NCBI GenBank assembly: GCA_020832805.1
Contig: JAFIED010000126.1
Coordinates: 1 to 38,622 of the forward strand
Source of the DNA: Pararhodobacter sp.
GTDB lineage: Bacteria; Pseudomonadota; Alphaproteobacteria; Rhodobacterales; Rhodobacteraceae
Reading direction: 5' to 3'
Length of the DNA: 38,622 bases
The stretch's first letter is position 1, and each line of letters starts with the position of its first letter. This document shows positions 14,568-35,033 of this stretch, piece after piece. The notes beneath the pieces were generated by a model that was not told the DNA's origin, made no database searches, and was given only the letters and a program-made list of their open reading frames with translations. The translations under genes were made by a program, and so were the position numbers.

Positions 14568-14744
14568 CTTGCAAAGGGCAAGAAATCTTTTTCCGCCGGA
14601 CAGAAAATTGAGCGCATCTCTTTAAGGCATCTTGAGAACACCGGTTTTCGGCGCGGTGCCGCATTGCGTCGGCTTGTGCAAAAGGTCAGGATAGCTGCCG
14701 GGCGGATGATTCCGGCGCGCCTTGCTGGCCAGCGGGAGGGGTTG

Positions 14745-24469: not shown

Positions 24470-24873
24470 CGCTGAAGGTGCGCCGCCCGGCGCTGGCCGG
24501 GCGGCTGCGCGGGCCCATGCAGGGGCTGTCGATGCTGATCTTTGTGGCTTTCATTGTGGTAGCGCTGGCCGCGAACTGGGGGTTTTTCCTGAACCTTGCC
24601 GGCGCAGTGGCGGTGCTGGTCATCGTGCATAACGCCCTTGCCCTGACCGCCGGCAATCTGGTTGCGCGTGCCAGCCGCCTGAGTGCCTATGACCGCCGGT
24701 CACTGACCATAGAGACCGGCATTCAGAACTCTGGCCTTGGTCTGGTGTTGATCTTCGGTTTCTTTGGCGGGCTTGGCGGGATGGCGGTGGTGGCGGCGCT
24801 TTGGGGGATCTGGCACGCCATATCGGGTATCGTGCTGGCCAGCATCTGGCGGCAGTTTCCGGTGCGGCCATGA
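24466..24873 (+). CDS. bile acid:sodium symporter-family protein, C-terminal half
   Basis: 135 residues in the frame that continues the preceding transporter half. It begins MTLKVRRPALAGRLRGP, a basic cytoplasmic linker, then has the second repeat: helices around LIFVAFIVVALAANWGFF and VAVLVIVHNALALTAGNLVAR, the conserved RRSLTIETGIQNSGLGLVL crossover motif that binds sodium and substrate in this family, and two last helices. It ends SIWRQFPVRP and overlaps the next gene by ATGA. It cannot transport alone, so it must pair with the product of 23960-24469 or be the tail of a frameshifted single gene. No Shine-Dalgarno sequence precedes ATG 24466, so its translation would depend on coupling. Confidence 0.75.
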   Translation: MTLKVRRPALAGRLRGPMQGLSMLIFVAFIVVALAANWGFFLNLAGAVAVLVIVHNALALTAGNLVARASRLSAYDRRSLTIETGIQNSGLGLVLIFGFFGGLGGMAVVAALWGIWHAISGIVLASIWRQFPVRP

Positions 24874-25808
24874 GCGCCGTGCTGATCACCGGCGCGGGCG
24901 GGCATGTGGGGCGCGCCCTGACGGCCCATCTGGCGCGGCAGAGGGTGCCGGTTATCGCCACCGATCTGACGGCGCCCGCCGATCTGCCCCGGGGTGTGCG
25001 GTTTGAACGGCTTGATGTGACCGGCTCTGACCCGGGCCGGGTCATCGGTACGCATCGGCCTGATGTGGTGATCCACCTTGCCTCGGTGGTCACGCCGCCG
25101 CCGGGGTTCACCGATGCCATGGCCTATCGGGTGGATGTCACCGGCAGCCGCCACGTGCTGGACGCCTGCCTGCGGCACGGCGTGCGCCGGCTTGTCGTCA
25201 CCTCGTCCGGCGCGGCCTATGGGTATCACCCGGAAAACCTGCGCGGCCCTCTGGCCGAGGATGCCCCCCTGCGCGGCAATCGCAGCTTTGCCTATGCCTG
25301 GCATAAACGCCTGGTCGAAGAAATGCTGGCGGATGCCCGCGCTGATCACCCCGCGTTGCAGCAGGTGGTGCTGCGTGTCGGTACCGTGCTGGGCGCCGGG
25401 CTGGAGAACCAGATCACGGCGCTGTTTCACAAGCCGCGACCGCTGATGCTGACCGGCAGCGACAGCCCCTTTGTCTTTATCTGGGACCAGGACCTGGCTG
25501 CCATTCTGGCCCGTGCCGCGCAGGATGGCCCACCCGGCATCTACAACGTGGCGGGCGACGGCGCGCCGGGCATGGTGGAGCTGGCCCGGCACATGGGCAA
25601 GAGTGTCCGGCAGCTGCCACCGGGGCTGTTGCGCGCGGCCTTGACGCTGGCGCACCCCCTTGGGTTAAGCCGGTATGGGCCGCAGCAGATTGGTTTCCTG
25701 CAATATCGCCCGGTTCTGGACAACACGGCGTTGAAAACCGTCTTTGGCTATTCCCCGGGCCTGACCAGCATCGCGGCTTTTGACCGTTGGTGGCAGGCGG
25801 CGCAATGA
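24870..25808 (+). CDS. extended SDR: NAD-dependent epimerase/dehydratase-family protein
   Basis: 312 residues of the extended short-chain dehydrogenase family. The cofactor motif ITGAGGHVG (TGxxGxxG) starts at residue 7, the acidic residue after strand 2 (ATDL) favours NAD, and the catalytic pair is Tyr142-x3-Lys146 (FAYAWHKR) with a serine in TSSGAA. The region resembles nucleoside-sugar epimerase or 3-beta-hydroxysteroid dehydrogenase-type enzymes. ATG 24870 overlaps the transporter stop (ATGA); no longer start is needed. It acts in the cytoplasm, probably oxidising or reducing a hydroxyl/keto group on the substrate of the operon. The C-terminal part (about 230-312), PPGLLRAALTLAHPLGLSR, fits the substrate-binding domain. 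The exact reaction is not determinable. Confidence 0.87.
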   Translation: MSAVLITGAGGHVGRALTAHLARQRVPVIATDLTAPADLPRGVRFERLDVTGSDPGRVIGTHRPDVVIHLASVVTPPPGFTDAMAYRVDVTGSRHVLDACLRHGVRRLVVTSSGAAYGYHPENLRGPLAEDAPLRGNRSFAYAWHKRLVEEMLADARADHPALQQVVLRVGTVLGAGLENQITALFHKPRPLMLTGSDSPFVFIWDQDLAAILARAAQDGPPGIYNVAGDGAPGMVELARHMGKSVRQLPPGLLRAALTLAHPLGLSRYGPQQIGFLQYRPVLDNTALKTVFGYSPGLTSIAAFDRWWQAAQ

Positions 25809-26584
25809 CGCGGGTCGCGGTCGTTACCGGCGCTGCGGGCGGCCTGGGTCAGGCGCTTTGCGCGGGGTTGGTGGCGCAGGGCTGGCGGGTCTGGGCGCTG
25901 GACCTGCCCTCTGCGGCGCTGGATGGATTGGCTGCTGCGCAGGTAACGCCCCTGCCGCTCGATCTGACCGATGATGCCGCGGTCAGGCACGCGGCCCGCG
26001 CGATCACCGACGTTACTCCGGGCATTGACCTGGTCATTCACGCCGCCGGCATCACCCATATCCGCGCCTTTGCAGACAGCACGGTTGACAGCCACCGGCG
26101 CGTCATGGCGATCAACCATTTTGGCCCCGTGGCGCTGACCCTGCATCTGCTTGCGGCTGTCCGTCAGGCGCGCGGCATACATCTGGCGATCTCGTCGGTT
26201 GCGGGCTTTGCGCCGCTGCATCATCGCAGCGCCTATGCCGCCAGCAAGCACGCGCTGGAGGGGTTCTTCAAATCGTTGCGCAGCGAGGAGGCGGCGCATG
26301 GTGTCGCCTGCCTGATTGCATCGCCGTCCTTTGTGGCCACCAACACGGGTGCGGGGCAGGCGCAGGCCGATGGCACCGCCCGCCCCGGGGCCGCCGCCGA
26401 CGGCTTTGATGCCATGACGCCCGCGGCCGCAGCCCGTATCATCCTGCATGGTATTGACCGGCGGCAAGCCTTCATTCCGGTGGGGCGGGTGGCGTGGGCC
26501 AGTCACATGCTGGTCCGCTTCTGGCCTGCCTTGTACGAGCGGCTGATGCGCCGGCGCATTGCGGGCAACCGGCGAAATGCGTGA
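25805..26584 (+). CDS. classical SDR oxidoreductase
   Basis: 259-residue classical short-chain dehydrogenase. The nucleotide motif VTGAAGGLG (TGxxxGxG) is at residues 8-16, Asp38-type acidic end of strand 2 (ALDLPSA) indicates NAD(H) preference, and the catalytic residues Ser131, Tyr144 and Lys148 (ISSVAGF and SAYAASK) are at the normal 12-residue spacing. The start ATG 25805 overlaps the previous stop (ATGA). It is the last gene of the FMO/BASS/SDR operon and most likely acts on an alcohol or ketone produced there. Its C-terminal region with a hydrophobic segment near HMLVRFWPALYERL could associate with the membrane. The stretch after its stop contains an EcfG-like promoter rather than an operon terminator of its own. 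Confidence 0.9.
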   Translation: MTRVAVVTGAAGGLGQALCAGLVAQGWRVWALDLPSAALDGLAAAQVTPLPLDLTDDAAVRHAARAITDVTPGIDLVIHAAGITHIRAFADSTVDSHRRVMAINHFGPVALTLHLLAAVRQARGIHLAISSVAGFAPLHHRSAYAASKHALEGFFKSLRSEEAAHGVACLIASPSFVATNTGAGQAQADGTARPGAAADGFDAMTPAAAARIILHGIDRRQAFIPVGRVAWASHMLVRFWPALYERLMRRRIAGNRRNA

Positions 26585-26600
26585 CAGACCAGCCGGTGCG

Positions 26601-26625
26601 GGAACCAAACCGGTTGGCAGGCGTT
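26601..26625 (+). promoter_or_regulatory. EcfG-type promoter for a small RNA
   Basis: GGAAC (26601-26605), 16-bp spacer, CGTT (26622-26625). This matches the EcfG (general stress response) consensus in the form established in alphaproteobacteria, GGAAC-N16/17-CGTT. It lies 17 bp after the SDR gene stop. No ORF with a ribosome site starts within the next 100 bp, and a strong terminator follows at 26705. Transcription would start near 26631. Confidence 0.72.
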
Positions 26626-26630
26626 TGTCT

Positions 26631-26741
26631 GGTATCTGTCCTCCCTCGTTGCCCTGCGCGCCTTTGCTCCCTCAAGTCCCGCGCAGGGCAGGCTTCTTTC
26701 CTTCAGGCGCCGTCACTGATCAACAGTGCGGCGCCTTTTTT
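26631..26741 (+). ncRNA. predicted EcfG-dependent trans-acting small RNA, about 110 nt
   Basis: Layout of the predicted transcript: a short 5' single-stranded segment holding UCCUCCCUC (26638-26646), a 10-bp perfect stem GCCCUGCGCG/CGCGCAGGGC (26651-26660 with 26680-26689), a 19-nt loop containing GCUCCCUCAAG (26661-26679), a pyrimidine-rich linker CUUCUUUCCUUC, and a terminator stem with six U. C-rich segments of the form CCUCCCU can pair with ribosome-binding sites. This is the feature of several alphaproteobacterial small RNAs, and of the EcfG (SigT)-dependent GsrN of Caulobacter, which has a C-rich loop. Homology to GsrN is not claimed. The 5' end (about 26631) is inferred from the promoter. 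No plausible coding frame with a ribosome site is found in it. Confidence 0.62.
26705..26741 (+). terminator. strong intrinsic terminator
   Basis: AGGCGCCG-T-CACTG pairs with CAGTG-CGGCGCCT across a 5-nt loop (26719-26723), with one bulged T, and is followed by six T (26736-26741). The 13-bp GC-rich stem and U-tract make it a very strong terminator. It ends the predicted small RNA and would also end read-through from the SDR operon. Confidence 0.85.
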
Positions 26742-26895
26742 CCTGCAGAGTCGATGAGTTGACCAGAAAACCGAACGGGCAGCGGCGATCAGCGCGCCTG
26801 CCGCCAGGATAGCCGGAAACCCATGCCGGGCCGGCTTGACTTTCCTGCTGCCCTGCCGAATGCTTGCTACCAGCGGTTGTCGTGGCGAGGAGAGC

Positions 26896-27414
26896 ATGAC
26901 CGATGTTGCTGCGCTCGAGCTTGATCTCGACCGCGATCTTTTTCTGCGTGAACTGCTGCGCCAGCTTGCCGGCGCGCTTCAGGATGTCGTGGGCCTGGAC
27001 GAGGCCGAAGGCTATGTCAGTACGGTAGGCCGCGCCATCGGGGGCATGCTGGATGAAAAGTACCGACAGGCGCTGAAAACCGACAGGCTGGACAAGGATC
27101 AGATCGCTGCGGTGCTGGTTGATCTGAAGCGACGTATCAAGGGCGGGTTCCGAATCGAGTCGGTCAACGGTGGGCGGATCGTGCTGGTCAATTCTGCGTG
27201 CCCCTTTGGCGAAAAGGTCCTCGACCGCCCATCGCTGTGCATGATGACCATGAACGTCTTTGGCCTGATAGCAGGCGAGAACAGCGGCCACGCCCGCGTT
27301 GCGATCACCGAGGCTATCGCCACAGGGGCGCCGGGATGCCGGGTGGTGGTAGACGTGCAGCCCACAGGCGATACGCCAGAGGGCGCGCGCGATTTCTTTC
27401 GCGCGGACTTGTGA
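26896..27414 (+). CDS. MetOD1-domain (methanogen output domain 1) regulatory protein
   Basis: 172-residue soluble protein. From about residue 45 it fits the MetOD1 family of small signalling domains: a helical N-terminal part (LFLRELLRQLAGALQDVVG) then a domain with three cysteines, Cys102 in SACPFG, Cys115 in SLCMMT and Cys148 in APGCRVVV. The CPFG and LC pattern is the family hallmark. Cysteines at these places could bind a metal or sense redox state. ATG 26896 follows GAGGAGAGC, and a longer start adds hydrophobic junk. Its stop overlaps the following histidine kinase by GTGA, so the two form a pair. I infer that it is the input or modulator module of that kinase. Confidence 0.72.
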   Translation: MTDVAALELDLDRDLFLRELLRQLAGALQDVVGLDEAEGYVSTVGRAIGGMLDEKYRQALKTDRLDKDQIAAVLVDLKRRIKGGFRIESVNGGRIVLVNSACPFGEKVLDRPSLCMMTMNVFGLIAGENSGHARVAITEAIATGAPGCRVVVDVQPTGDTPEGARDFFRADL

Positions 27415-28544
27415 GCGATGCATCGCCAATGACCGGGAAAACGGTTCACGCACAGATATCTCTTGATTTCCTGAGCGACCCCGCGTTGCTGTTGAACCGC
27501 GATGGCACCATCGTACAGACCAATACCCAGGCGCGGCGTCTGCTGGGCGATGGTCTGATCGGCCGCCCCCTGGCCGCATTGCTGGACGACACGCCGGAAA
27601 GGCTGCGCGGGATCATCGACGCCGCCGCCAGATCGACCGCCCCGATGATGAGCGCGCTGACCCTGCACGGGCCAGAGCACGGGCCAGAGCAAGGGCCACA
27701 GAGCGGGCCGGGGCAGGCGCACGGGGGCACGCGCAGGCAGGTCAGGTTGGCCCGGATAACGCGTGACCCTGTGGCCGATCCACTGATCGTGTTGCTGTTT
27801 GCCGGCGCCAGCGGCGCACGCTTTTCGAAACTGCGTGAAGACCTGCGTCAGGCCGAATCGCTGTTGCGTGAGAGGATGGTGGAAAAAGCGGAACTGCATG
27901 CGGCGCTGGAGCAAAACCGTCTGCTGTACAGAGAGTTGCAGCACAGGCTGAAGAACAACATCCACCTGATCGGGGCCTTGCTGCGCTTGTCGGCCCGTGA
28001 TCAGGACAGCCCCGAGGTGGGCGTTGTGATTGACGGTGCGATGCGACGTATTCAGGCGATGGGCCGCACGCAGGAAGCGATCTACGAAGCGCGCAGCCTG
28101 AACACGCTTGATGCAAGACCATTCATCGAAAGAATCCTGCGCGGCCTGACGCATTCGCTCATGCCGCACGGCCGGATCGATGCGCAACTGGATGATGTCA
28201 TCATCCAAGCCGATGCCGCCCATAATCTGGCGCTGATCGTTAATGAACTGGCGACGAACGCCATGAAATACGGCCGTCAGGATGCAGACGCCCTGCTGTC
28301 GGTCGCGTTACGCCATGATCCCGCCAGCGATACCATGATACTGGAAATCGCAGACAACGGGCCGGGCTTTGATCCGGCCACGGTTCAGCGCTCGTCCGGG
28401 CTGGCGCTGTGCGAAGCCCTGGTAAGCCAGCTTGATGGTCACATGCAGCATTGTGATACGCCGCAAGGTGGCAGTTGCTGGCGCGTTCATCTGCCGGGCG
28501 AAAGCTGTATCGCCGCCCCGCCGGACCTTGCGCCTACCGGGTGA
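27411..28544 (+). CDS. HisKA_2 sensor histidine kinase with PAS domain
   Basis: 377 residues from a GTG that overlaps the previous stop (GTGA); an ATG at 27429 is an alternative start. A PAS domain occupies about residues 15-145 (SLDFLSDPALLLNRDGTIVQTN). It contains a glycine-proline repeat linker (HGPEHGPEQGPQSGP, about 85-98), which is unusual within a PAS fold. The dimerisation/phosphoacceptor helix has His178 in ELQHRLKNN, the HisKA_2 form found in kinases of the general stress response. The ATPase domain is complete: NELATNAMKYG (N box), Asp315 in ADNGPGFD (G1), and SGLALCEALVSQLDG. No membrane segments are visible, so it is cytoplasmic. It probably phosphorylates PhyR or a single-domain receiver, since no partner regulator is adjacent. 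Confidence 0.87.
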   Translation: MSDASPMTGKTVHAQISLDFLSDPALLLNRDGTIVQTNTQARRLLGDGLIGRPLAALLDDTPERLRGIIDAAARSTAPMMSALTLHGPEHGPEQGPQSGPGQAHGGTRRQVRLARITRDPVADPLIVLLFAGASGARFSKLREDLRQAESLLRERMVEKAELHAALEQNRLLYRELQHRLKNNIHLIGALLRLSARDQDSPEVGVVIDGAMRRIQAMGRTQEAIYEARSLNTLDARPFIERILRGLTHSLMPHGRIDAQLDDVIIQADAAHNLALIVNELATNAMKYGRQDADALLSVALRHDPASDTMILEIADNGPGFDPATVQRSSGLALCEALVSQLDGHMQHCDTPQGGSCWRVHLPGESCIAAPPDLAPTG

Positions 28545-28566
28545 CAGGGCGGGGCTGACGACCGGG

Positions 28567-29049
28567 TCACCCTTTCGGCGGTGCGTGGCGGTCCAGCAGG
28601 TCGATCAGTGCCTGACGATCATCGCCGAGCTGGCGGCGCTGCTCGGGGTCGGTGCTGGCGGCGATGGCTTCGACATAGGCTTCAAGCACATGTTTTTCGC
28701 CCTCTACCAGCGCGTCCATGATGTTTGACGAAATCTCGTCGAACCAGGAACGCACGGTTACCACGGCACTGTTGACTGTGCCGAAAATCGATCCGGCGTT
28801 GCCCGCGTCTTGCGACGCGTCATGGCCCAGGGTCTGCAACATGCCTGCGACGGCGGCACTTTGGCGGATATGCAACTGTCGAAAGGCAGCGGCGATGGGC
28901 CGGAAGTCGGGTTCTGCCTTTTCCAGCACTGTATCAAGGCCGTGGATCGTGTCTGCAAGGCGTGTGTTCAGCTCTTCCAGCGCCTTGGTTTCGGCTGCGG
29001 GCCAGTCGGCATCAAGCCGGGCTGCCTGGCCTTGTTTGAGATCGGTCAT
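28567..29049 (-). CDS. PA2169-type four-helix-bundle protein (DUF2383)
   Basis: 160-residue soluble protein, predicted almost wholly helical, of the ferritin-like DUF2383 family. It begins MTDLKQGQ and has the ALEELNTRLADTIHGLDTVLEKA and FRQLHIRQSAAVAGMLQTLG helices, a GTVNSAVVTVRSWF turn, and the GEKHVLEAYVEAIAAS helix. Members often lie near stress and spore-coat-like genes and some carry a di-iron site. Here His and Glu residues in helices 2 and 4 could serve, but the ligand set cannot be confirmed. ATG 29049 with AGGAC is used; a start 15 bp upstream is also open. It lies downstream of the DUF1328 gene on the same strand, which has an EcfG-type promoter, so it is probably in the stress regulon. 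Confidence 0.83.
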   Translation of the reverse strand: MTDLKQGQAARLDADWPAAETKALEELNTRLADTIHGLDTVLEKAEPDFRPIAAAFRQLHIRQSAAVAGMLQTLGHDASQDAGNAGSIFGTVNSAVVTVRSWFDEISSNIMDALVEGEKHVLEAYVEAIAASTDPEQRRQLGDDRQALIDLLDRHAPPKG

Positions 29050-29092
29050 GGGTTTGTCCTGCATCTTCTGGGTGGGTCAGAGGTTTTGAACG

Positions 29093-29122
29093 ACCGGGCA
29101 GCGCCGTATCGCGCTGCCCGGT
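29093..29122. repeat. 12-bp perfect inverted repeat between DUF1328 and DUF2383 genes
   Basis: ACCGGGCAGCGC (29093-29104) pairs with GCGCTGCCCGGT (29111-29122) around a 6-nt loop. There is no T-run on either side, so it is not a classical terminator. It may be a processing or partial-termination hairpin that sets different amounts of the two neighbouring messages. Confidence 0.6.
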
Positions 29123-29131
29123 GGGAGGCGG

Positions 29132-29305
29132 CTACATCGGGGGCTGTCCCCTGATCGCGCGGGCCACCATGGCCACGACGAACAGGATCAGGAAGATCAC
29201 GAACAGTATCTGCGCGATCGACGATGCCGTACCGGCGATGCCGGTAAAACCAAGCGCCGCTGCAATCAGCGCAACGATAAGGAAGGTCAGTGCCCAACCC
29301 AGCAT
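29132..29305 (-). CDS. DUF1328 small membrane protein
   Basis: 57 residues with two hydrophobic helices ([17 protein letters not shown] and [18 protein letters not shown]) joined by a TGIAGTASS turn. This is the YtjA/DUF1328 family, full length. The start ATG 29305 follows a strong AAAGGAG; the open frame upstream is not conserved. Function of the family is unknown, but members are often induced by stress. An EcfG-like promoter (29346-29371, minus strand) precedes it by about 40 bp. It is probably co-transcribed with the DUF2383 gene downstream, with a hairpin between them. Confidence 0.87.
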
Positions 29306-29345
29306 GGGGGGTCTCCTTTCACGATGTTTCGGTATTTGGTCAGTG

Positions 29346-29371
29346 AACGCCTTCCGCAGCGCATGGGTTCC
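29346..29371 (-). promoter_or_regulatory. EcfG-type promoter for DUF1328/DUF2383 genes
   Basis: On the minus strand GGAAC (29371-29367), a 17-bp spacer and CGTT (29349-29346). The predicted start lies about 30-35 nt before the DUF1328 ribosome site. It is divergent from the EcfG-like promoter at 29385-29410. Confidence 0.65.
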
Positions 29372-29384
29372 TGGCACGAGAGCC

Positions 29385-29410
29385 GGAACCGCGCCGTGCA
29401 TTCATGCGTT
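29385..29410 (+). promoter_or_regulatory. EcfG-type promoter for a 90-residue membrane protein
   Basis: GGAAC (29385-29389), a 17-bp spacer, CGTT (29407-29410). The next plus-strand gene starts at 29515, giving a leader of about 95-100 nt. The spacing is at the upper end of the EcfG range, so this is a slightly weaker match than those with 16 bp. Confidence 0.55.
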
Positions 29411-29514
29411 GGTTCTGTTGTCGGGGCGTTCTGATGCGCCCTGCAGGCACGCGACTGGCATCGGCATGACGACGCATGTCGCAGCCAGTAGCGCCAGAAG
29501 CGAAAGGAAATGTC

Positions 29515-29787
29515 ATGTCAGCACCCGACACCAATCTGCAAAAGCAGAAGCGGCGTCATTGGGGCCCTCTTCTGGGTATCGCCGCCGTTCTGGTACTCGT
29601 TGCGGTCTTGTTCTTTGCCTATCTGGGCTATTCGGCCGATACCGACACACCAGAGCAACAGCCCGCTGCGGGCCAAGTAGACCCCGAAGTGGGGCAGCCA
29701 GCCGAAGGAACGCCGGCAACGCCGCTGACGACGCCCGATGGCGCGCCGCAAGTGATCGAGCCTGATCAGGCCCCTGCGGAGCAGTAG
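29515..29787 (+). CDS. small single-pass membrane protein with Pro/acidic tail, unknown
   Basis: 90 residues. A basic N-terminus (LQKQKRRH) is followed by one strong hydrophobic segment (LLGIAAVLVLVAVLFFAYL), then a tail rich in Pro, Gln, Asp and Glu (TPEQQPAAGQ... to APAEQ), so the tail is probably periplasmic. ATG 29515 has AAAGGAAATG upstream; the frame upstream lacks conservation. I do not recognise a named family. The EcfG-like promoter at 29385 and position between stress genes suggest a role in the general stress response. The message ends in a bidirectional terminator at 29858. Confidence 0.7.
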   Translation: MSAPDTNLQKQKRRHWGPLLGIAAVLVLVAVLFFAYLGYSADTDTPEQQPAAGQVDPEVGQPAEGTPATPLTTPDGAPQVIEPDQAPAEQ

Positions 29788-29857
29788 GAAAACGCCGTTG
29801 GCCCGCGATGTCTCGCGGGCCGATCCGGGTGAACGACCCTGAACCGGCCAGCATGGA

Positions 29858-29887
29858 AAAAGGCCCCGGCAACGGCCGGGGCCTTTT
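29858..29887. terminator. bidirectional intrinsic terminator
   Basis: AAAAGGCCCCGGC (29858-29870) pairs perfectly with GCCGGGGCCTTTT (29875-29887) around a 4-nt loop. The A-run and T-run allow termination in both directions, separating the 90-residue protein gene (plus) from phyR (minus), whose stop is at 29906. Confidence 0.85.
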
Positions 29888-29905
29888 CATTCGGCAGCCT
29901 GTTTC

Positions 29906-30775
29906 CTAGCTCATAAGTGTTTCGGTCGAGGCAAAGAACATAGCCTGCGACACCGCCGAGCGTACCTGTTCGGGCGAAAACGGCTTGGTAATCAGGAAGG
30001 CCGGCTCTGGCCGCTCGCCGGTCAGCAACCGGTCGGGGAAGGCGGTGATGAAGATCACGGGCACGTCACCCAACTCACCCATCAGGTGCCGCACGGCATC
30101 GATACCGGACGAATTATCGGCCAACTGGATATCGGCCAGGATCAGATCAGGGCGTTTTTCCAGACCCAGTTTTATCGCCTGATCCCGCGTGCGGGCAATC
30201 CCCGTCACATCATGGCCCATGTCGTTGACAATATTGCGGATGTCCAGCGCGATCAACGGCTCGTCCTCGATGACCATCACCTTGCCGCGGATGCTGGCCT
30301 CCATTTCGCGGTAGGCGATGGCGATCAGATCCTGCGCCTCGGATGCGTCGATCTGCATGATGCGGCCTATCTCATCATGCGCGAACTCTTCGATCGTGCG
30401 CAGCAGCAGCGCTTCGCGGGTATTTGGTGTCAGGCGGGCAAGATGTGCCTGCGCGCGCGCCTCAAGCCCGATGCCGGGATCGTCGGAGATGCCATCTTGC
30501 GCGATGGGGGCGCCAGAACTTTGCCAGACCGCATGAAAGGCCGCAAAAAGTGCGATCTTCAGATCGTCATCCCGGGCAAGCAACGATCGGTCGTTGACCA
30601 TGGCCTCCAGTGTTGCGGCGGCGTAGCGGTCGCCGGTTTCCTGGCTGCCTGTCAGGGCGCGCGCATACCGGCGCAGATAGGGCAGGTCGGCGGCGATGCG
30701 CATGGCTGTGCTGTCCGGCACACTGGATTGCCGCGGCGCCGGGTTGCCCTGCGTGGAACGCTCAAGATCAGTCAT
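29906..30775 (-). CDS. phyR: PhyR anti-anti-sigma response regulator
   Basis: 289 residues with the diagnostic PhyR architecture: an N-terminal sigma-factor-like domain (about 25-155, including YLRRYARALTGSQETGDRYAA and the sigma4-like LLRTIEEFAHDEIGRIMQ) and a C-terminal receiver. In the receiver the acidic pocket is Glu170-Asp171, the phosphoacceptor is Asp215 (LILADIQ), and Thr244 (FITAF) and Lys264 (ITKPF) complete it. When phosphorylated, the sigma-like domain takes NepR away from EcfG. ATG 30775 has a distant GGAG; an in-frame ATG at 30703 would give a shorter, more typical N-terminus. It is divergent from nepR-ecfG and reads from the minus-strand face of the palindromic EcfG promoter at 30799-30830, so it autoregulates through EcfG. 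Confidence 0.96.
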   Translation of the reverse strand: MTDLERSTQGNPAPRQSSVPDSTAMRIAADLPYLRRYARALTGSQETGDRYAAATLEAMVNDRSLLARDDDLKIALFAAFHAVWQSSGAPIAQDGISDDPGIGLEARAQAHLARLTPNTREALLLRTIEEFAHDEIGRIMQIDASEAQDLIAIAYREMEASIRGKVMVIEDEPLIALDIRNIVNDMGHDVTGIARTRDQAIKLGLEKRPDLILADIQLADNSSGIDAVRHLMGELGDVPVIFITAFPDRLLTGERPEPAFLITKPFSPEQVRSAVSQAMFFASTETLMS

Positions 30776-30798
30776 TGTGTTTTTTCTCCGGTGTCTCT

Positions 30799-30830
30799 GG
30801 AACCAAACGTGTCATCGCGCGTTTGGTTCC
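30799..30830. promoter_or_regulatory. palindromic divergent EcfG promoter (phyR <-> nepR-ecfG)
   Basis: Perfect inverted repeat: GGAACCAAACG (30799-30809), 10-nt centre, CGTTTGGTTCC (30820-30830). Read on the plus strand it is GGAAC-N16-CGTT (30799-30803, 30820-30823). Read on the minus strand it is the same GGAAC-N16-CGTT (30830-30826, 30809-30806). The -35 of each promoter therefore flanks the -10 of the other. Only one RNA polymerase can bind at a time, so phyR and nepR-ecfG transcription should be mutually exclusive but equally EcfG-dependent. Start points would be near 30831 (plus) and 30798 (minus). Confidence 0.85.
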
Positions 30831-30879
30831 CAACAATTCGGTCGCCGAAGCCTTGTTGAAAAAGCATTACCGTCGGCGC

Positions 30880-31086
30880 ATGATAGAAACAGTGACGAAG
30901 GCCAGCAAGTTGCATATGAAACAAACCGACAGTAACCGCAGCGGGAAGCACAAGTTATCGCCCGCTGTCGAACAGCAGATCAACGAGAACCTGCGCTTGC
31001 TTTACGAGCAGCAGCTTCAGGCGGATTTGCCGGACAAGTTGAAAGACCTTGTAGCGCGCCTGCGCAGCGAGGGAGAGCCGAAATGA
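30880..31086 (+). CDS. nepR: NepR anti-sigma factor
   Basis: 68 residues from ATG 30880 (56 from ATG 30916; neither has a good ribosome site). The C-terminal part, EQQINENLRLLYEQQLQ followed by ADLPDKLKDLVARL, has the two amphipathic helices of NepR, with the family LR-x-x-Y/L and P-x-x-L-x-x-L spacing. NepR sequesters EcfG until phosphorylated PhyR binds NepR. It is directly upstream of ecfG with an ATGA overlap, and behind the EcfG promoter at 30799-30823. The N-terminal tail is polar and variable, as usual for this family. Confidence 0.88.
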   Translation: MIETVTKASKLHMKQTDSNRSGKHKLSPAVEQQINENLRLLYEQQLQADLPDKLKDLVARLRSEGEPK

Positions 31087-31796
31087 CCGACACATCGGGC
31101 TTTCGCGCCGCAGAGGACGATGTGTTCCCTGCGGACTCTTCGCTGTCGGCCTTGCCGGCAGAGTCGGATCGCCGCGCAACCGATGCCGCGCAATCAACGG
31201 ATTCAAGCGTCAATAACGTTGCCGGTTCGCCAGCCGATAGCGTTTCGACCGATCCGCGTGAAGCGATCATCGAGCACTTGCCGGCACTGCGCGCCTTTGC
31301 ACTCAGCATTTCGCGTGATGCGTCACTGGCCGATGATCTGGTACAGGAAACGCTGCTGAAGGCCTGGACCAAGTTCCATCTGTTCACGCCCGGCACCAAT
31401 CTGCGCGCCTGGCTGTTCACGATTCTGCGCAACAGCCTGCATTCCCTGCGCCGCAAGCGCAAACGCGAGGTCGCCGACCCTGATGGCATCATGGCCGGCC
31501 AGTTGGCCACGAAACCTGATCATGATGGCAGGCTGGCGCTTTCCGATCTGGCGGCGGCTTTTGTCAAACTGCCGATCGAACAGCGCGAGGCACTGTTGCT
31601 GGTCGGTGCCATGGGCTTCTCGGTAGAAGAAGCTGCCGATACCTGCGGCTGCGCAGCCGGCACCATCAAAAGCCGCGCCGCGCGCGGGCGGCGTGCGCTG
31701 GCCGATTTGCTGGGTCTTGATCGGGGCGAAGGCATGGATCTGACAGAGGCCGCCACCATGGCCGTGATGTCGATGCAGGGGCAAAAGGCGGGATAA
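31083..31796 (+). CDS. ecfG: EcfG general stress response sigma factor
   Basis: 237-residue ECF sigma factor (ECF15/EcfG type). Sigma region 2 spans about 60-125 (IIEHLPALRAFALSISR, DDLVQETLLKAW, LRAWLFTILRN) and region 4 about 150-215 (LPIEQREALLLVGAMGFSVEEAADTCGCAAGTIKSRAARGR). A ~55-residue Ser/Ala/Asp-rich N-terminal extension is unusually long. ATG 31083 overlaps the nepR stop (ATGA). Freed from NepR, it directs RNA polymerase to GGAAC-N16/17-CGTT promoters, of which seven candidates lie in this window, including its own. The next gene, a histidine kinase, starts 6 bp after its stop and is therefore likely in the same operon. Confidence 0.95.
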   Translation: MTDTSGFRAAEDDVFPADSSLSALPAESDRRATDAAQSTDSSVNNVAGSPADSVSTDPREAIIEHLPALRAFALSISRDASLADDLVQETLLKAWTKFHLFTPGTNLRAWLFTILRNSLHSLRRKRKREVADPDGIMAGQLATKPDHDGRLALSDLAAAFVKLPIEQREALLLVGAMGFSVEEAADTCGCAAGTIKSRAARGRRALADLLGLDRGEGMDLTEAATMAVMSMQGQKAG

Positions 31797-31802
31797 GGCC
31801 AT

Positions 31803-33653
31803 ATGCGCACGTTACGGCCCGGTGCCTTGAAAGGCGCCACCGACAGGCTGTCGATCAGGCTACTGATCCTGCTGTCGGTGGCGCTTTTGCCATTGGGCGC
31901 GATCTCGTTCAGTGCCACGCTTGAGTTGACCAGAGCGGCACAGCGCACGGGCGAGCGCAGCCTGATTGCCCAGACCGCAGATTCGCTGGCGGGCGAGCGT
32001 GCGCTGGTCGAAAGCGCGCTGGCATCGGCCGATGCCATCCGGTCTCTGGTTCTGGAACGGCTGGATGACCCGCAAGCCTGCAACACCCTTTTGCGTGACT
32101 ATGTGGAACGATCCAATATCTACAGCCTGATTGCGTTCATCGGCGTGGATGGCGTGTCACAATGCATCTCGGGCGGTGAAGTGCTGAACTTTGGCGAAAG
32201 CCCGATGTTCCAGGGTCTGCGCGACGTCCCCATGACAATGATCAGCGCCAGCCCCTCTGGCCGGTCTACGGGCGTTCCTGTGGTCATTGTCACCCGGCCG
32301 GTCTTTGAAGATGGGTCCCTGGCGGGGTTTCTGTCGGTTTCGATCACAAGGCGGTCAATGGAACTGCTGGGGCAGCGAAGACTCGCGGATGCGCCCGCCG
32401 TTTCAGTCTTGCTTAACCGCGAGGGAGAGGTGCTCAGCCTTGATCCCGAAGGCGACCAGATGGCGCAGTTGCCGGGATCTCAGGCTTTGCGGCGCATGAC
32501 CGGGCAGGCGGGCAGCAATGTGTATCATGATCGCACGCGTGCGGGCCGGCCCGCCGTCTATGCCGTTGCCGAGTTGATCCCGCGCCAGCTTTACGGCCTG
32601 GCCATGTGGGAGGAGAATGCCGACCAGTTGTCAGTGCTGCAAACCAGCGCGCTGCCCCTGGTCTTTCCGGCCGTGATGTGGCTCTCCAGCTTGGCTGTCG
32701 TCCTGTTTTCGGTGCACTATCTGGTGCTCAGGCATCTGAGAAGCCTGAACCGCCAGGTGCGCCGCTTCGCCCTGGGTCAGCGCGAGCCCTGGGCAGAGCT
32801 TGCCGGTCATGTGCCGTCCGAGATCCGCGATCTGCAAAGCACGTTCCGCAACATGTCACGCCTGATCACCCGCGACGAGTTGGAACGGGAAAAGGCGCTG
32901 GTTGAAAAGACAGTGCTGCTGAAAGAGTTGCACCACCGCGTCAAGAACAACCTGCAACTGATCGCCTCGATCATCAATCTGCAGCTGCGCCAGATCGATG
33001 ATGCCGAGGCGCGGCGCGTTCTGCATGGTGTGCAGGAACGCGTGCTGGGGCTGGCTACGGTGCACCGGGCGCTTTACGGCGAGGAACACCTGGCGCATGT
33101 GCGGGCTGACCGCGTCATCGAGGAAATCACGGGCCGGATCGGGCGCCTGGGCACTGCACCAAACAAGACCCCGACGCTGAATCTGAAACTACAGCCGTTG
33201 ACGCTGGATGCCGATCATATGGTGCCTCTGACCTTTGTACTGAACGAGGGGCTGACCAACGCGCTGAAGTATATGGGCGCGGGTGCCGCCGCGCAGCCGG
33301 GTCACGGCTGGATCGATGTCGAACTGTATCTTGAGCCGCCCACCGGGGAAGACACGTCGGGGGCGGTTGTGTTGCGGATGCTCAACCCTTTGCCGTCTGA
33401 TGCGGCGGCACGCCATGTTGATACTGCCGGTGGCGATGGCGACCATGACCCGTCAGGCGATGGGCGCATGAAGCGCAGTACTGCGGCCAGTGGGCTTGGC
33501 CGGGATCTGATCGAGGCCTTTGCGCTGCAGCTCAACGGAACCCTGCACCTGGCACCCGCACATGATGCGCAGCGTGGACCCGTGTGGGAACTGTTGTTGC
33601 GTTTTCCCGCCCCGGCCGGTGCCGTGCTGGTGGAACCGGCCCCGCCGGCCTGA
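31803..33653 (+). CDS. membrane HisKA_2 sensor kinase of the general stress response
   Basis: 616 residues. Two membrane segments (about 18-40, LLILLSVALLPLGAISFSATL, and about 280-305, ALPLVFPAVMWLSSLAVVLFSVHYL) enclose a periplasmic Cache-like sensor domain of about 235 residues. A HAMP-like helix follows, then the HisKA_2 helix with phosphoacceptor His378 in ELHHRVKNN. The ATPase part has the N box (LNEGLTNALKYMG) and a G2-like GLGRDLIEAFALQLNG, but the DxGxG box is replaced by LNPLP (about 527-531). It lies 6 bp behind ecfG, as PhyK-type kinases often do, so it probably phosphorylates PhyR in response to an external signal. The ATP-box change may mean low or altered kinase activity, or a phosphatase role. 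Confidence 0.9.
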   Translation: MRTLRPGALKGATDRLSIRLLILLSVALLPLGAISFSATLELTRAAQRTGERSLIAQTADSLAGERALVESALASADAIRSLVLERLDDPQACNTLLRDYVERSNIYSLIAFIGVDGVSQCISGGEVLNFGESPMFQGLRDVPMTMISASPSGRSTGVPVVIVTRPVFEDGSLAGFLSVSITRRSMELLGQRRLADAPAVSVLLNREGEVLSLDPEGDQMAQLPGSQALRRMTGQAGSNVYHDRTRAGRPAVYAVAELIPRQLYGLAMWEENADQLSVLQTSALPLVFPAVMWLSSLAVVLFSVHYLVLRHLRSLNRQVRRFALGQREPWAELAGHVPSEIRDLQSTFRNMSRLITRDELEREKALVEKTVLLKELHHRVKNNLQLIASIINLQLRQIDDAEARRVLHGVQERVLGLATVHRALYGEEHLAHVRADRVIEEITGRIGRLGTAPNKTPTLNLKLQPLTLDADHMVPLTFVLNEGLTNALKYMGAGAAAQPGHGWIDVELYLEPPTGEDTSGAVVLRMLNPLPSDAAARHVDTAGGDGDHDPSGDGRMKRSTAASGLGRDLIEAFALQLNGTLHLAPAHDAQRGPVWELLLRFPAPAGAVLVEPAPPA

Positions 33654-33786
33654 CCCCCGCGCCACATCAGGCAGAAACAGCGCACGCGCGCCATGCCCCG
33701 TGCGGGCCGGCTGCGTTGCGCGATACACGGCCATCCTCAGCCGCCGTTTCCGGTTCGGAAAATTCCTTGTCGGTGCTTGCGAAGCG

Positions 33787-33811
33787 GGAACCTCTGACGG
33801 GTGACAGCGTT
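33787..33811 (+). promoter_or_regulatory. EcfG-type promoter for the CsbD/DUF883 operon
   Basis: GGAAC (33787-33791), a 16-bp spacer, CGTT (33808-33811). A leader of about 57 nt runs to the CsbD start at 33875, which has a strong AAAGGAG site. Confidence 0.8.
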
Positions 33812-33874
33812 ATTCACGTGTCAGCCGGCAAGAAGGGCATTCCGTCCCGCGCCGGTATCAAAAGGAGTTTTGTG

Positions 33875-34072
33875 ATGAATTGGGACCAGGTTAAAGGCAA
33901 GTGGAAGCAGATGACCGGCAGCGCCAAAGAGCGTTGGGGCAAGTTGACCGACGATGAACTGACCCAGATCGACGGCAGCCGTGAAAAGCTGGTCGGGAAA
34001 ATCCAGGAAAAATACGGGATCGCAAAGGAAGAGGCCGAAAAGCAGGTCGACGACTGGGGCAGCAAGGGCTGA
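33875..34072 (+). CDS. CsbD-family stress protein
   Basis: 65-residue hydrophilic helical protein of the CsbD family, full length: MNWDQVKGKWKQMTGSAKE followed by RWGKLTDDELTQIDGSREK, then KIQEKYGIAKEEAEKQVDDW. CsbD proteins are abundant during general stress in many bacteria, with unknown molecular role. ATG 33875 has AAAGGAG at the right spacing; the long open frame upstream does not resemble the family. It is the first gene behind the EcfG-like promoter at 33787. Next to it is a GC hairpin without a T-run (34107-34126) and then a DUF883 gene, so read-through could co-express them. Confidence 0.94.
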   Translation: MNWDQVKGKWKQMTGSAKERWGKLTDDELTQIDGSREKLVGKIQEKYGIAKEEAEKQVDDWGSKG

Positions 34073-34106
34073 CCTGACAGACCGTTTCATGGCCTGAACG
34101 CTACAG

Positions 34107-34126
34107 CCCCGGCCGTTCGGCCGGGG
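34107..34126. repeat. GC hairpin between CsbD and DUF883 genes
   Basis: CCCCGGCC (34107-34114) pairs with GGCCGGGG (34119-34126) across a 4-nt loop GTTC. There is no U-tract, so I read it as an intercistronic hairpin that may stabilise the csbD message or give partial termination rather than as a full terminator. Confidence 0.55.
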
Positions 34127-34164
34127 TGCCGCGTCGTGCCGTTTCGCACTAAAGGAGAATGATC

Positions 34165-34512
34165 ATGGCAAGCCAAGCTGCAGACAATGCACGCAAGAAA
34201 GTGGAAGACATTTCTGACAAGGCGGTCAAGCACGCGCGCGACGCCACCAACGACCTGGCCGACGACTTTTCGGCGCTCAAGGCGCAGTTGGAAGACCTGA
34301 CCAGAAGTGTCGCCAGAATGAGTGCCGAGCGGGTCGACGGCGCGGCGCGTCAAATCGCCTCGACGGCGAATGCCGGCTACGAACGGGCAGCAGACACGGT
34401 GGTTGATGCCTATTCAGAGGCAGAGCGCTTCACTGCGGAAAAGCCTGCCGTAGCACTGGGCATGGCCGCAGGCCTTGGCCTTCTGGCGGGCATGCTGTTG
34501 ACGCGGCGCTGA
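34165..34512 (+). CDS. DUF883 (ElaB/YqjD-like) membrane-anchored protein
   Basis: 115 residues. A long amphipathic helical part (about 5-85: NARKKVEDISDKAVKHARDA and SALKAQLEDLTRSVARMSAE) ends in one hydrophobic helix (VALGMAAGLGLLAGMLL) and a basic RR tail. This matches YqjD/ElaB, inner-membrane proteins of stationary phase that can bind ribosomes. The start ATG 34165 has AAAGGAG at 7-nt spacing; ATG 34159 is too close to it. It follows csbD, probably under the same EcfG promoter, and is followed 1 bp later by the interrupted holin-like gene. The YqjD-YqjE order is common in proteobacteria. Confidence 0.88.
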   Translation: MASQAADNARKKVEDISDKAVKHARDATNDLADDFSALKAQLEDLTRSVARMSAERVDGAARQIASTANAGYERAADTVVDAYSEAERFTAEKPAVALGMAAGLGLLAGMLLTRR

Positions 34513-34513
34513 C

Positions 34514-34885
34514 ATGTTGCCCGCGCCCGCAGCACTACGCCATTATGCCATCGGCAACGCGCGCCGCGCCGGCGTTCTGACCGCCGGCGCGGTGTCCATG
34601 GCAATCGGCGTCGGGTTCCTGCTGGCAGCATAGTGGAGCGCGGCAGCTTTGGCAATGGGTCCGGTGCTGGCCAGTCTTGCCTTGGCGGCACTGCTGGTCG
34701 GGGCGGGTCTGATCGTGGTGGCTTTGGCCCCGCCGGCCCCGCCAAGGCCAAAAGCGCCGCAGCCGCTTCGCAAGTTCGCCGCCGCGGCCACGCCATGGGA
34801 GCCGACCGGCAGGTTGTCGCCCGCCGCAGAGGCTTTCCTGTTTGGCGTATCTGTCGCCGTTCAATTGCGAAACCGCCGCCGCTAG
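34514..34885 (+). pseudogene. holin-like (YqjE-type) membrane gene with in-frame TAG
   Basis: One continuous frame from ATG 34514 is interrupted by TAG at 34631-34633, after 39 codons. Upstream of the stop it reads RRAGVLTAGAVSMAIGVGFL-LAA, and directly after it WSAAALAMGPVLASLALAAL then a second hydrophobic segment, so the two parts form the usual two-helix layout of phage-holin-family/YqjE proteins (first helix ending before a Trp-containing linker). The frame ends at 34885 with QLRNRRR. The TAG is either a nonsense mutation, a sequencing error or an amber read-through site. TTG 34649 or ATG 34655 could restart the second part, giving 77-79 residues with one full helix. It follows DUF883 by 1 bp and is very likely co-transcribed. 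Confidence 0.65.
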
Positions 34886-34931
34886 GCACCTGAATACACA
34901 CTAGCCCTTGTGGCAGCCGCCCTTGGCGGCG

Positions 34932-34960
34932 CCGTCCCCGATGCGTCGGGGGCGGTTTTT
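34932..34960 (+). terminator. intrinsic terminator
   Basis: CCGTCCCCGA (34932-34941) pairs with TCGGGGGCGG (34946-34955), one T-G wobble, a 4-nt loop, followed by TTTTT (34956-34960). It ends the CsbD/DUF883/holin-like transcription unit. Confidence 0.85.
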
Positions 34961-35008
34961 AAGTTTCTGATAAAAATAAATAATTTCTGATTTCTTTTGC
35001 GCCATACC

Positions 35009-35033
35009 GGAACCGGCACACGGCGCGCGCGTT
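35009..35033 (+). promoter_or_regulatory. EcfG-type promoter for the PRC-barrel gene
   Basis: GGAAC (35009-35013), a 16-bp spacer, CGTT (35030-35033). The gene starts at 35091 with a GGAG site, giving a leader of about 50 nt. Confidence 0.8.

Follow-up and report, generated by a model that had tools for sequence, protein, structure and literature searches.

In the general stress response, PhyR frees the sigma factor EcfG from NepR under stress. In the CcsR/cuckoo RNAs of Rhodobacter, a member of the Rhodobacteraceae, C/U-rich motifs are exposed in loops, as they are in the candidate RNA described here, from which the CcsR/cuckoo RNAs differ in their motif, CCUCCUCCC, and in their control by RpoH. 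A C-rich RNA driven by the stress sigma factor is GsrN of Caulobacter crescentus. In the paper on it, BLASTn matches of GsrN are confined to Caulobacteraceae, and for several alphaproteobacteria outside that family its authors predicted C-rich RNAs under EcfG control close to the core genes of the stress response; for the GsrN target in the katG leader, where no clear ribosome site could be predicted, they discuss ribosome recruitment (PMC5869019). Another design is that of the alpha-r8 family (RF00519), to which MmgR of Sinorhizobium and SisA-D of Caulobacter belong and whose anti-Shine-Dalgarno core is given as UUUCCUCCCU (PMC12559287).

The candidate lies in a 38,622-nt stretch of DNA from a Pararhodobacter species (hereafter the window), whose draft genome comprises 300 contigs at 89.9% completeness. 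Judging from its sequence, the candidate is probably (about 0.68) a stand-alone gene of the stress response that encodes an EcfG-dependent, trans-acting anti-Shine-Dalgarno small RNA. By analogy, it is best read as working like GsrN and the alpha-r8 RNAs while being a proven member of neither. With the GsrN-like RNAs (PMC5869019) it shares a near-consensus EcfG box upstream, here an exact GGAAC-N16-CGTT, closeness to ecfG-phyR (the phyR gene is 3.2 kb and the ecfG start 4.3 kb away) and an exposed C-rich 5' segment; this CCUCCCU is a 5' stretch rather than a loop, and the looped CUCCCU lies in the middle of the RNA. Whereas ribosome recruitment is discussed for GsrN at katG, we assume that the candidate RNA blocks ribosome sites. 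With the alpha-r8 family (PMC12559287), the candidate has in common an intrinsic terminator and, with one mismatch, the core UUUCCUCCCU, and it adds a second one-mismatch core in a loop and the EcfG box. However, its score of 12.2 bits falls short of the RF00519 gathering score of 41, and the alpha-r8 order of weak hairpin, core and terminator differs from its own, since no hairpin precedes its first core and a strong one follows it. That layout is better matched by another RNA family of the genus (family C, below), which also scores below the threshold. AbcR1/AbcR2 of Sinorhizobium resemble the candidate in that they carry two unpaired, CU-rich anti-Shine-Dalgarno motifs, but differ in having three stem-loops and other promoters (PMC7143759).

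The letters and coordinates that the initial annotation gave for the EcfG box, CCTCCCT, the 10-bp stem with its CTCCCT loop and the terminator proved correct (Table 1). The predicted RNA is 111 nt long and has a folding energy of -48.4 kcal/mol; 0 of 200 shuffled sequences were equally stable. Its hairpin has a perfect 10-bp stem (26651-26660 with 26680-26689), which an outer U-A pair extends to 11 bp, and a loop of 19 nt. The terminator hairpin occupies 26705-26736 and is completed by six T at 26736-26741; an automated terminator scan called none at this site; its stated rules count plain stems, and the candidate's stem has a one-base bulge. Mechanical open reading frames of 87 aa (26494-26757) and 67 aa (26559-26762), plus others on the minus strand, cross the candidate stretch, whereas no frame of at least 60 codons starts within 200 nt after the EcfG box. 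To call the stretch gene-free, in the sense that no likely gene lies between box and terminator, is a matter of judgement. Among 90 EcfG boxes (spacing 15-17) in the window and 18 fetched phyR-locus stretches, six are followed by a strong terminator 50-130 nt downstream, versus 0 of 74 decoy sites drawn from eight motifs. These six are the candidate, two sites in each of the relatives G004 and G014, and one in G015 (L114), the last of which was taken as coding because a 323-codon frame lies just downstream.

Table 1 Features of the candidate RNA, its genomic setting and related RNAs of the genus. Positions refer to the window unless a locus or contig is given.
Feature	Position	Strand	Evidence or remark
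EcfG (sigma-EcfG) promoter box GGAAC-N16-CGTT	26601..26625	+	Exact match
Predicted small RNA, ~110 nt	26631..26741	+	5' end inferred from box, 3' end from terminator; fold z = -5.56
ATCTGTCC, 5' piece, 8 nt after CGTT, in register with G004 and G014	26634..26641	+	Sequence comparison
First anti-Shine-Dalgarno segment, TGTCCTCCCT	26637..26646	+	One mismatch from alpha-r8 core
Hairpin, 11 bp, large loop	26650..26690	+	z = -4.60
Second anti-Shine-Dalgarno segment, TTTGCTCCCT, in hairpin loop	26663..26672	+	One mismatch from alpha-r8 core
Intrinsic terminator: 13-bp stem, one bulge, T run	26705..26741	+	z = -6.17
phyR, stress-response switch near candidate RNA	29906..30775	-	Pfam PhyR_sigma2, Response_reg
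nepR and ecfG	30880..31796	+	Pfam NepR; Sigma70_r2 and r4
ecfG translation start region, weak candidate target of 5' segment (feedback)	31053..31094	+	Rank 2/34, -22.0 kcal/mol
phyK translation start region, weak candidate target of loop	31773..31814	+	Rank 1/34, -23.1 kcal/mol
Family B counterpart, G004	L107 12361	-	ATCTGTCC exactly 8 nt after CGTT
Family B counterpart, G014	L108 2914	-	ATCTGTCC exactly 8 nt after CGTT
Family C, G004	L107 15851-15945	+	EcfG box, weak hairpin, AUCCCUCCCUCC, terminator
Family C, G014	L108 7735-7829	+	EcfG box, weak hairpin, AUCCCUCCCUCC, terminator
Family D, G002	L164; G002:C7 17088-17114	-	EcfG box, CCCUC-loop hairpin, conserved UUUGUCCCUUGAA, terminator
Family D, G010	L177; G010:C8 43213-43239	+	EcfG box, CCCUC-loop hairpin, conserved UUUGUCCCUUGAA, terminator

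The candidate sits in a general stress island. Pfam places phyR, nepR, ecfG and the HisKA_2/HWE kinase adjoining ecfG, which we label phyK, at 29906-33653, and the window holds eight EcfG boxes (spacing 15-18) where 0.88 are expected. An EcfG box also precedes several nearby stress-type genes, namely those for DUF1328, a small hypothetical protein, CsbD and a PRC-barrel protein. Seven of the eight strict boxes fall in 26601-35033, and two of these face each other between phyR and nepR. Within the island, the gene of a MetOD1-domain protein also forms an operon with that of an HWE/HisKA_2 kinase (26896-28544), which may provide the stress response with a second sensor. The MetOD1 gene is absent from the relatives' fetched phyR loci and present elsewhere in G006, G007 and G014; going by record titles, it also occurs in unrelated phyla.

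Relatives were surveyed in 18 phyR-locus stretches from 15 genomes of the genus besides the candidate's own; no phyR match reached the threshold in G013 or G016, and a phyR fragment on a third contig of G006 was left out. More than one phyR-like match per genome was seen in G007 (two, L101/L102) and in G006 (on three contigs, L105/L106). We define family B (the candidate, G004 and G014) by an EcfG box, 8 nt, ATCTGTCC, a hairpin, a linker and a terminator; this order is present in all three genomes, at different positions within the stress island. The first bases of the candidate, AUCUGUCC, match G004 and G014 in register from the EcfG box, and among the 89 other EcfG-box sites these two matches rank first (G004, 9 nt) and second (G014, 8 nt), the next best being 6 nt. 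An EcfG box followed by TCTGTCC was found at three places, one in each of these three genomes and all in the stress island (control, 1), and is missing from the other 15 of the 18 genus genomes, several of them incomplete; this genus-wide count is partly circular because the motif was derived from the same sites, the in-register ranking less so. Alignments not anchored to the box gave no significant match of the candidate to G004 (359 of 2000 shuffles) or G014 (889 of 2000).

Both counterparts fold strongly (z = -5.19 for G004 and -4.80 for G014), in the order hairpin, CUGUCCCUC, terminator. There CUGUCCCUC lies in the linker before the terminator, and in the G014 fold a few of its bases pair with the 5' end. 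Although the hairpin occupies the matching place, CUCCC is missing from its loop; the CUCCCU loop is conserved in neither genome, which bears out one half of a refuting condition set by the initial annotation, namely no covariation together with no conservation of this loop. The counterparts sit between a small holin-like gene (named by eye) and a PRC-barrel gene. In the candidate's genome, the only EcfG box seen in this slot is that of the PRC gene, and the candidate RNA is instead a neighbour of the MetOD1-kinase operon. Near the two G004 sites there are mechanical frames of 127 and 186 codons, the former a GTG frame that crosses the family B unit; both are taken as chance frames. The promoter, the terminator, the stress-island position and the 5' end shared with two genus mates all support the predicted EcfG-dependent small RNA of the initial annotation.

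The proposal of two exposed anti-Shine-Dalgarno segments is also supported in the candidate's sequence: the RNA carries two alpha-r8-like copies, UGUCCUCCCU and UUUGCUCCCU, each one mismatch from UUUCCUCCCU. The TGTCCTCCCT segment is unpaired in the centroid fold and has three bases paired in the minimum-energy fold; within it, CCTCCCT (26640-26646) is, as CCUCCCU, unpaired in the centroid fold with only its first base paired in the minimum-energy fold. The CTCCCT of the loop is at 26667-26672, and three to four weak pairs are predicted in the loop that holds this copy of the core. Island sequence amounting to 638,872 strand-bases has 12 sites within one mismatch of the alpha-r8 core, and the candidate RNA accounts for two of them. 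CTCCCT itself occurs 31 times in the same sequence, which gives 0.0054 expected per 111 nt, and the candidate RNA has two. Because CUCCCU was noticed first, the core match adds only the weight of the four letters before it. At these frequencies, the presence of two such cores within 111 nt is hard to put down to chance.

Pairing was predicted for 34 gene starts in the window, and the ribosome sites of ecfG and phyK came out as weak candidate targets. The ecfG pairing was equalled by 26 of 500 shuffled segments, and the match at this site is not visibly kept in G004 and G014 (by eye); in the first-pass ranking, background windows paired as strongly in ~0.7% of cases for the 5' segment with ecfG and in 1.4% for the loop with phyK. 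The best predicted partner of the 5' segment was a flavin monooxygenase-like gene (-24.4; its GTG start is uncertain), the next-best partner of the loop after phyK was the HWE kinase (-21.2), and the linker paired best with a DctP-type gene (-21.5). Local targets had been suggested with the GGGAGG site at 14733 (MaoC gene) as the example; that site shares third place for the 5' segment, and ecfG and phyK do better, weakly. We regard all these targets as no more than leads.

For the transcription of the candidate RNA, its control by EcfG, its pairing and targets, the direction of its effect and the role of Hfq, we infer the following course. Stress would cause PhyR to release EcfG from NepR, and EcfG would transcribe the RNA from the box at 26601, the transcript being ended by the terminator at 26741. 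The RNA would then expose its two C/U-rich segments, one at the 5' end and one in the hairpin loop, each near the alpha-r8 core. By pairing with the G-rich ribosome-binding sites that several mRNAs would offer, both may mostly lower translation, probably assisted by Hfq, and the possible targets include the stress regulators ecfG and phyK themselves.

Wider searches for relatives gave little. BLASTN of the candidate found no match in the 17 other genus genomes or in plasmids, and in Rfam the RNA scored below every gathering score. The initial annotation had proposed a covariance search; run on 394 family genomes with a single-sequence model (R1), it matched 81 genomes, the candidate's included, at E <= 1, and the 24 matches read were noise, none having CTCCC in the match or a relaxed EcfG box in the preceding 60 nt. 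The best other R1 match in the 18 genus genomes (G001, 32.8 bits) was rejected, as no relaxed EcfG box precedes it and it looks protein-coding by eye. Seven minor matches of another model (R2) were read, none with an EcfG box in the preceding 70 nt. An EcfG box with ATCTGTCC was found in seven of the 394 genomes, the candidate's included, versus four in the control, with no excess outside the genus, where five of the six matches lie inside open frames of >300 codons. No such RNA was seen beside the orthologue of the downstream gene in G006, G007 and G014, or beside the SDR gene in G007. The hairpin stem GCCCTGCGCG was also considered as a repeat element and rejected as a repeat family, since it occurs in 3 of 18 genomes and at a single place in each. 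A perfect palindrome downstream of phyR in G006 (L105 6124-6154) shares its 10-base stem with the hairpin of the candidate; it is without CUCCC, so the likeness is probably a coincidence.

The genus has other candidate C-rich RNAs with an EcfG box. Family C gave strong matches in 2 of the 18 genus genomes (G004 and G014) and none at E <= 1 in the candidate's genome. It has an unpaired CCCUCCCUCC, its terminator shows one compensated pair (by eye), and it adjoins a DUF2383 gene, on the side that the candidate RNA and the kinase operon occupy in the candidate's genome; unanchored alignment of the candidate with the two members gave 92 and 55 of 2000 shuffles. Thirty-five further EcfG boxes, drawn from a narrower GGAACC...CGTTTG list, yielded family D at two and no such RNA by our criteria at the remaining 33. 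The family D site adjoins a GGDEF gene and has the RF3 (prfC) gene on its other side; it lies away from phyR. Against RF00519, its nearest Rfam family, family C reached 27.6 and 23.7 bits and one of the two family D members 21.0, all above the candidate and below the gathering score, and no match was listed for the family B members of G004 and G014; because another match of 20.1 bits (L150) is at an unrelated place, scores near 20 mean little and only those of family C carry weight. It is tempting, though doubtful, to regard the stress islands of the genus as a nursery in which EcfG-driven anti-Shine-Dalgarno RNAs change fast: each species would assemble its own set (own type, B, C, D) from the same parts, and some of the RNAs would act back on ecfG and phyK at their ribosome sites, as an RNA brake on the stress response.

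The candidate lies between two operons, and its box and terminator might serve either neighbour. The operon of MetOD1 (26896-27414) and the HWE/HisKA_2 kinase is on the same strand and starts ~155 nt past the terminator, and a sensor kinase would suit stress control, as expected if the EcfG promoter drove the leader of this operon with the terminator as an attenuator. However, no strict EcfG box was seen with the MetOD1 orthologues of G006, G007 and G014 in the stretches examined, a TTGAC located 60-64 nt before the MetOD1 start in the candidate's genome, G007 and G006 may be the operon's own promoter (by eye), and the counterparts in G004 and G014 precede a PRC-barrel gene having an EcfG box of its own; a leader is rather improbable. 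On the other side, the SDR stop codon is only 16 nt before the EcfG box and no other terminator was seen between them, so the epimerase-SDR operon (24870-26584) could simply end here, the candidate being either its terminator and 3' UTR or a 3'-UTR-derived RNA. A plain 3' UTR, though, leaves the exact EcfG box and the matching 5' ends in G004 and G014 unexplained, and the closest SDR orthologue (G007, 76%) has no strict EcfG box in the 3.8 kb examined and is followed by other sequence, with the hairpin absent by eye. We consider such an origin improbable.

That the EcfG box, the palindrome and the terminator were brought together by chance and have no function would agree with the absence of the candidate from most of the family and genus genomes searched, but hardly with the decoys (0/74), with in-register matches ranking first and second of 89, or with the location of all three genus-wide box-TCTGTCC matches in the stress island (the partly circular count), and it is highly improbable. 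Harder to separate from the preferred reading is a small RNA acting mainly through its 5' end, AUCUGUCC, the sole part common to G004 and G014, with the CUCCCU segments being minor. Other small RNAs commonly use a free 5' end as their seed, and the 5' 8-mer is the conserved part here; against it stand the two alpha-r8-like cores, which are hard to get by chance in 111 nt. The two readings are close because the first anti-Shine-Dalgarno segment overlaps the 5' 8-mer, so that their odds overlap and do not sum to one with the others; on its own terms, action mainly through the 5' end seems somewhat unlikely.

The idea of an EcfG-driven C-rich RNA is not new, as such RNAs near ecfG-phyR were already predicted by the authors of GsrN. 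The candidate is therefore an undescribed output of the stress response only in part, given the GsrN-like RNAs predicted for other alphaproteobacteria in that paper (PMC5869019). The combination of an EcfG box, two alpha-r8-like cores and a genus-restricted family was not found in the open-licence literature searched. If an EcfG-dependent anti-Shine-Dalgarno RNA is indeed encoded here, RNA as an output of the EcfG-controlled general stress response would extend to a genus of the Rhodobacteraceae. The candidate would join two known designs in one two-core molecule, the stress-sigma-driven C-rich RNA exemplified by GsrN and the anti-Shine-Dalgarno core RNA exemplified by alpha-r8, which suggests that such RNAs may turn over fast while the promoter-plus-core design persists.
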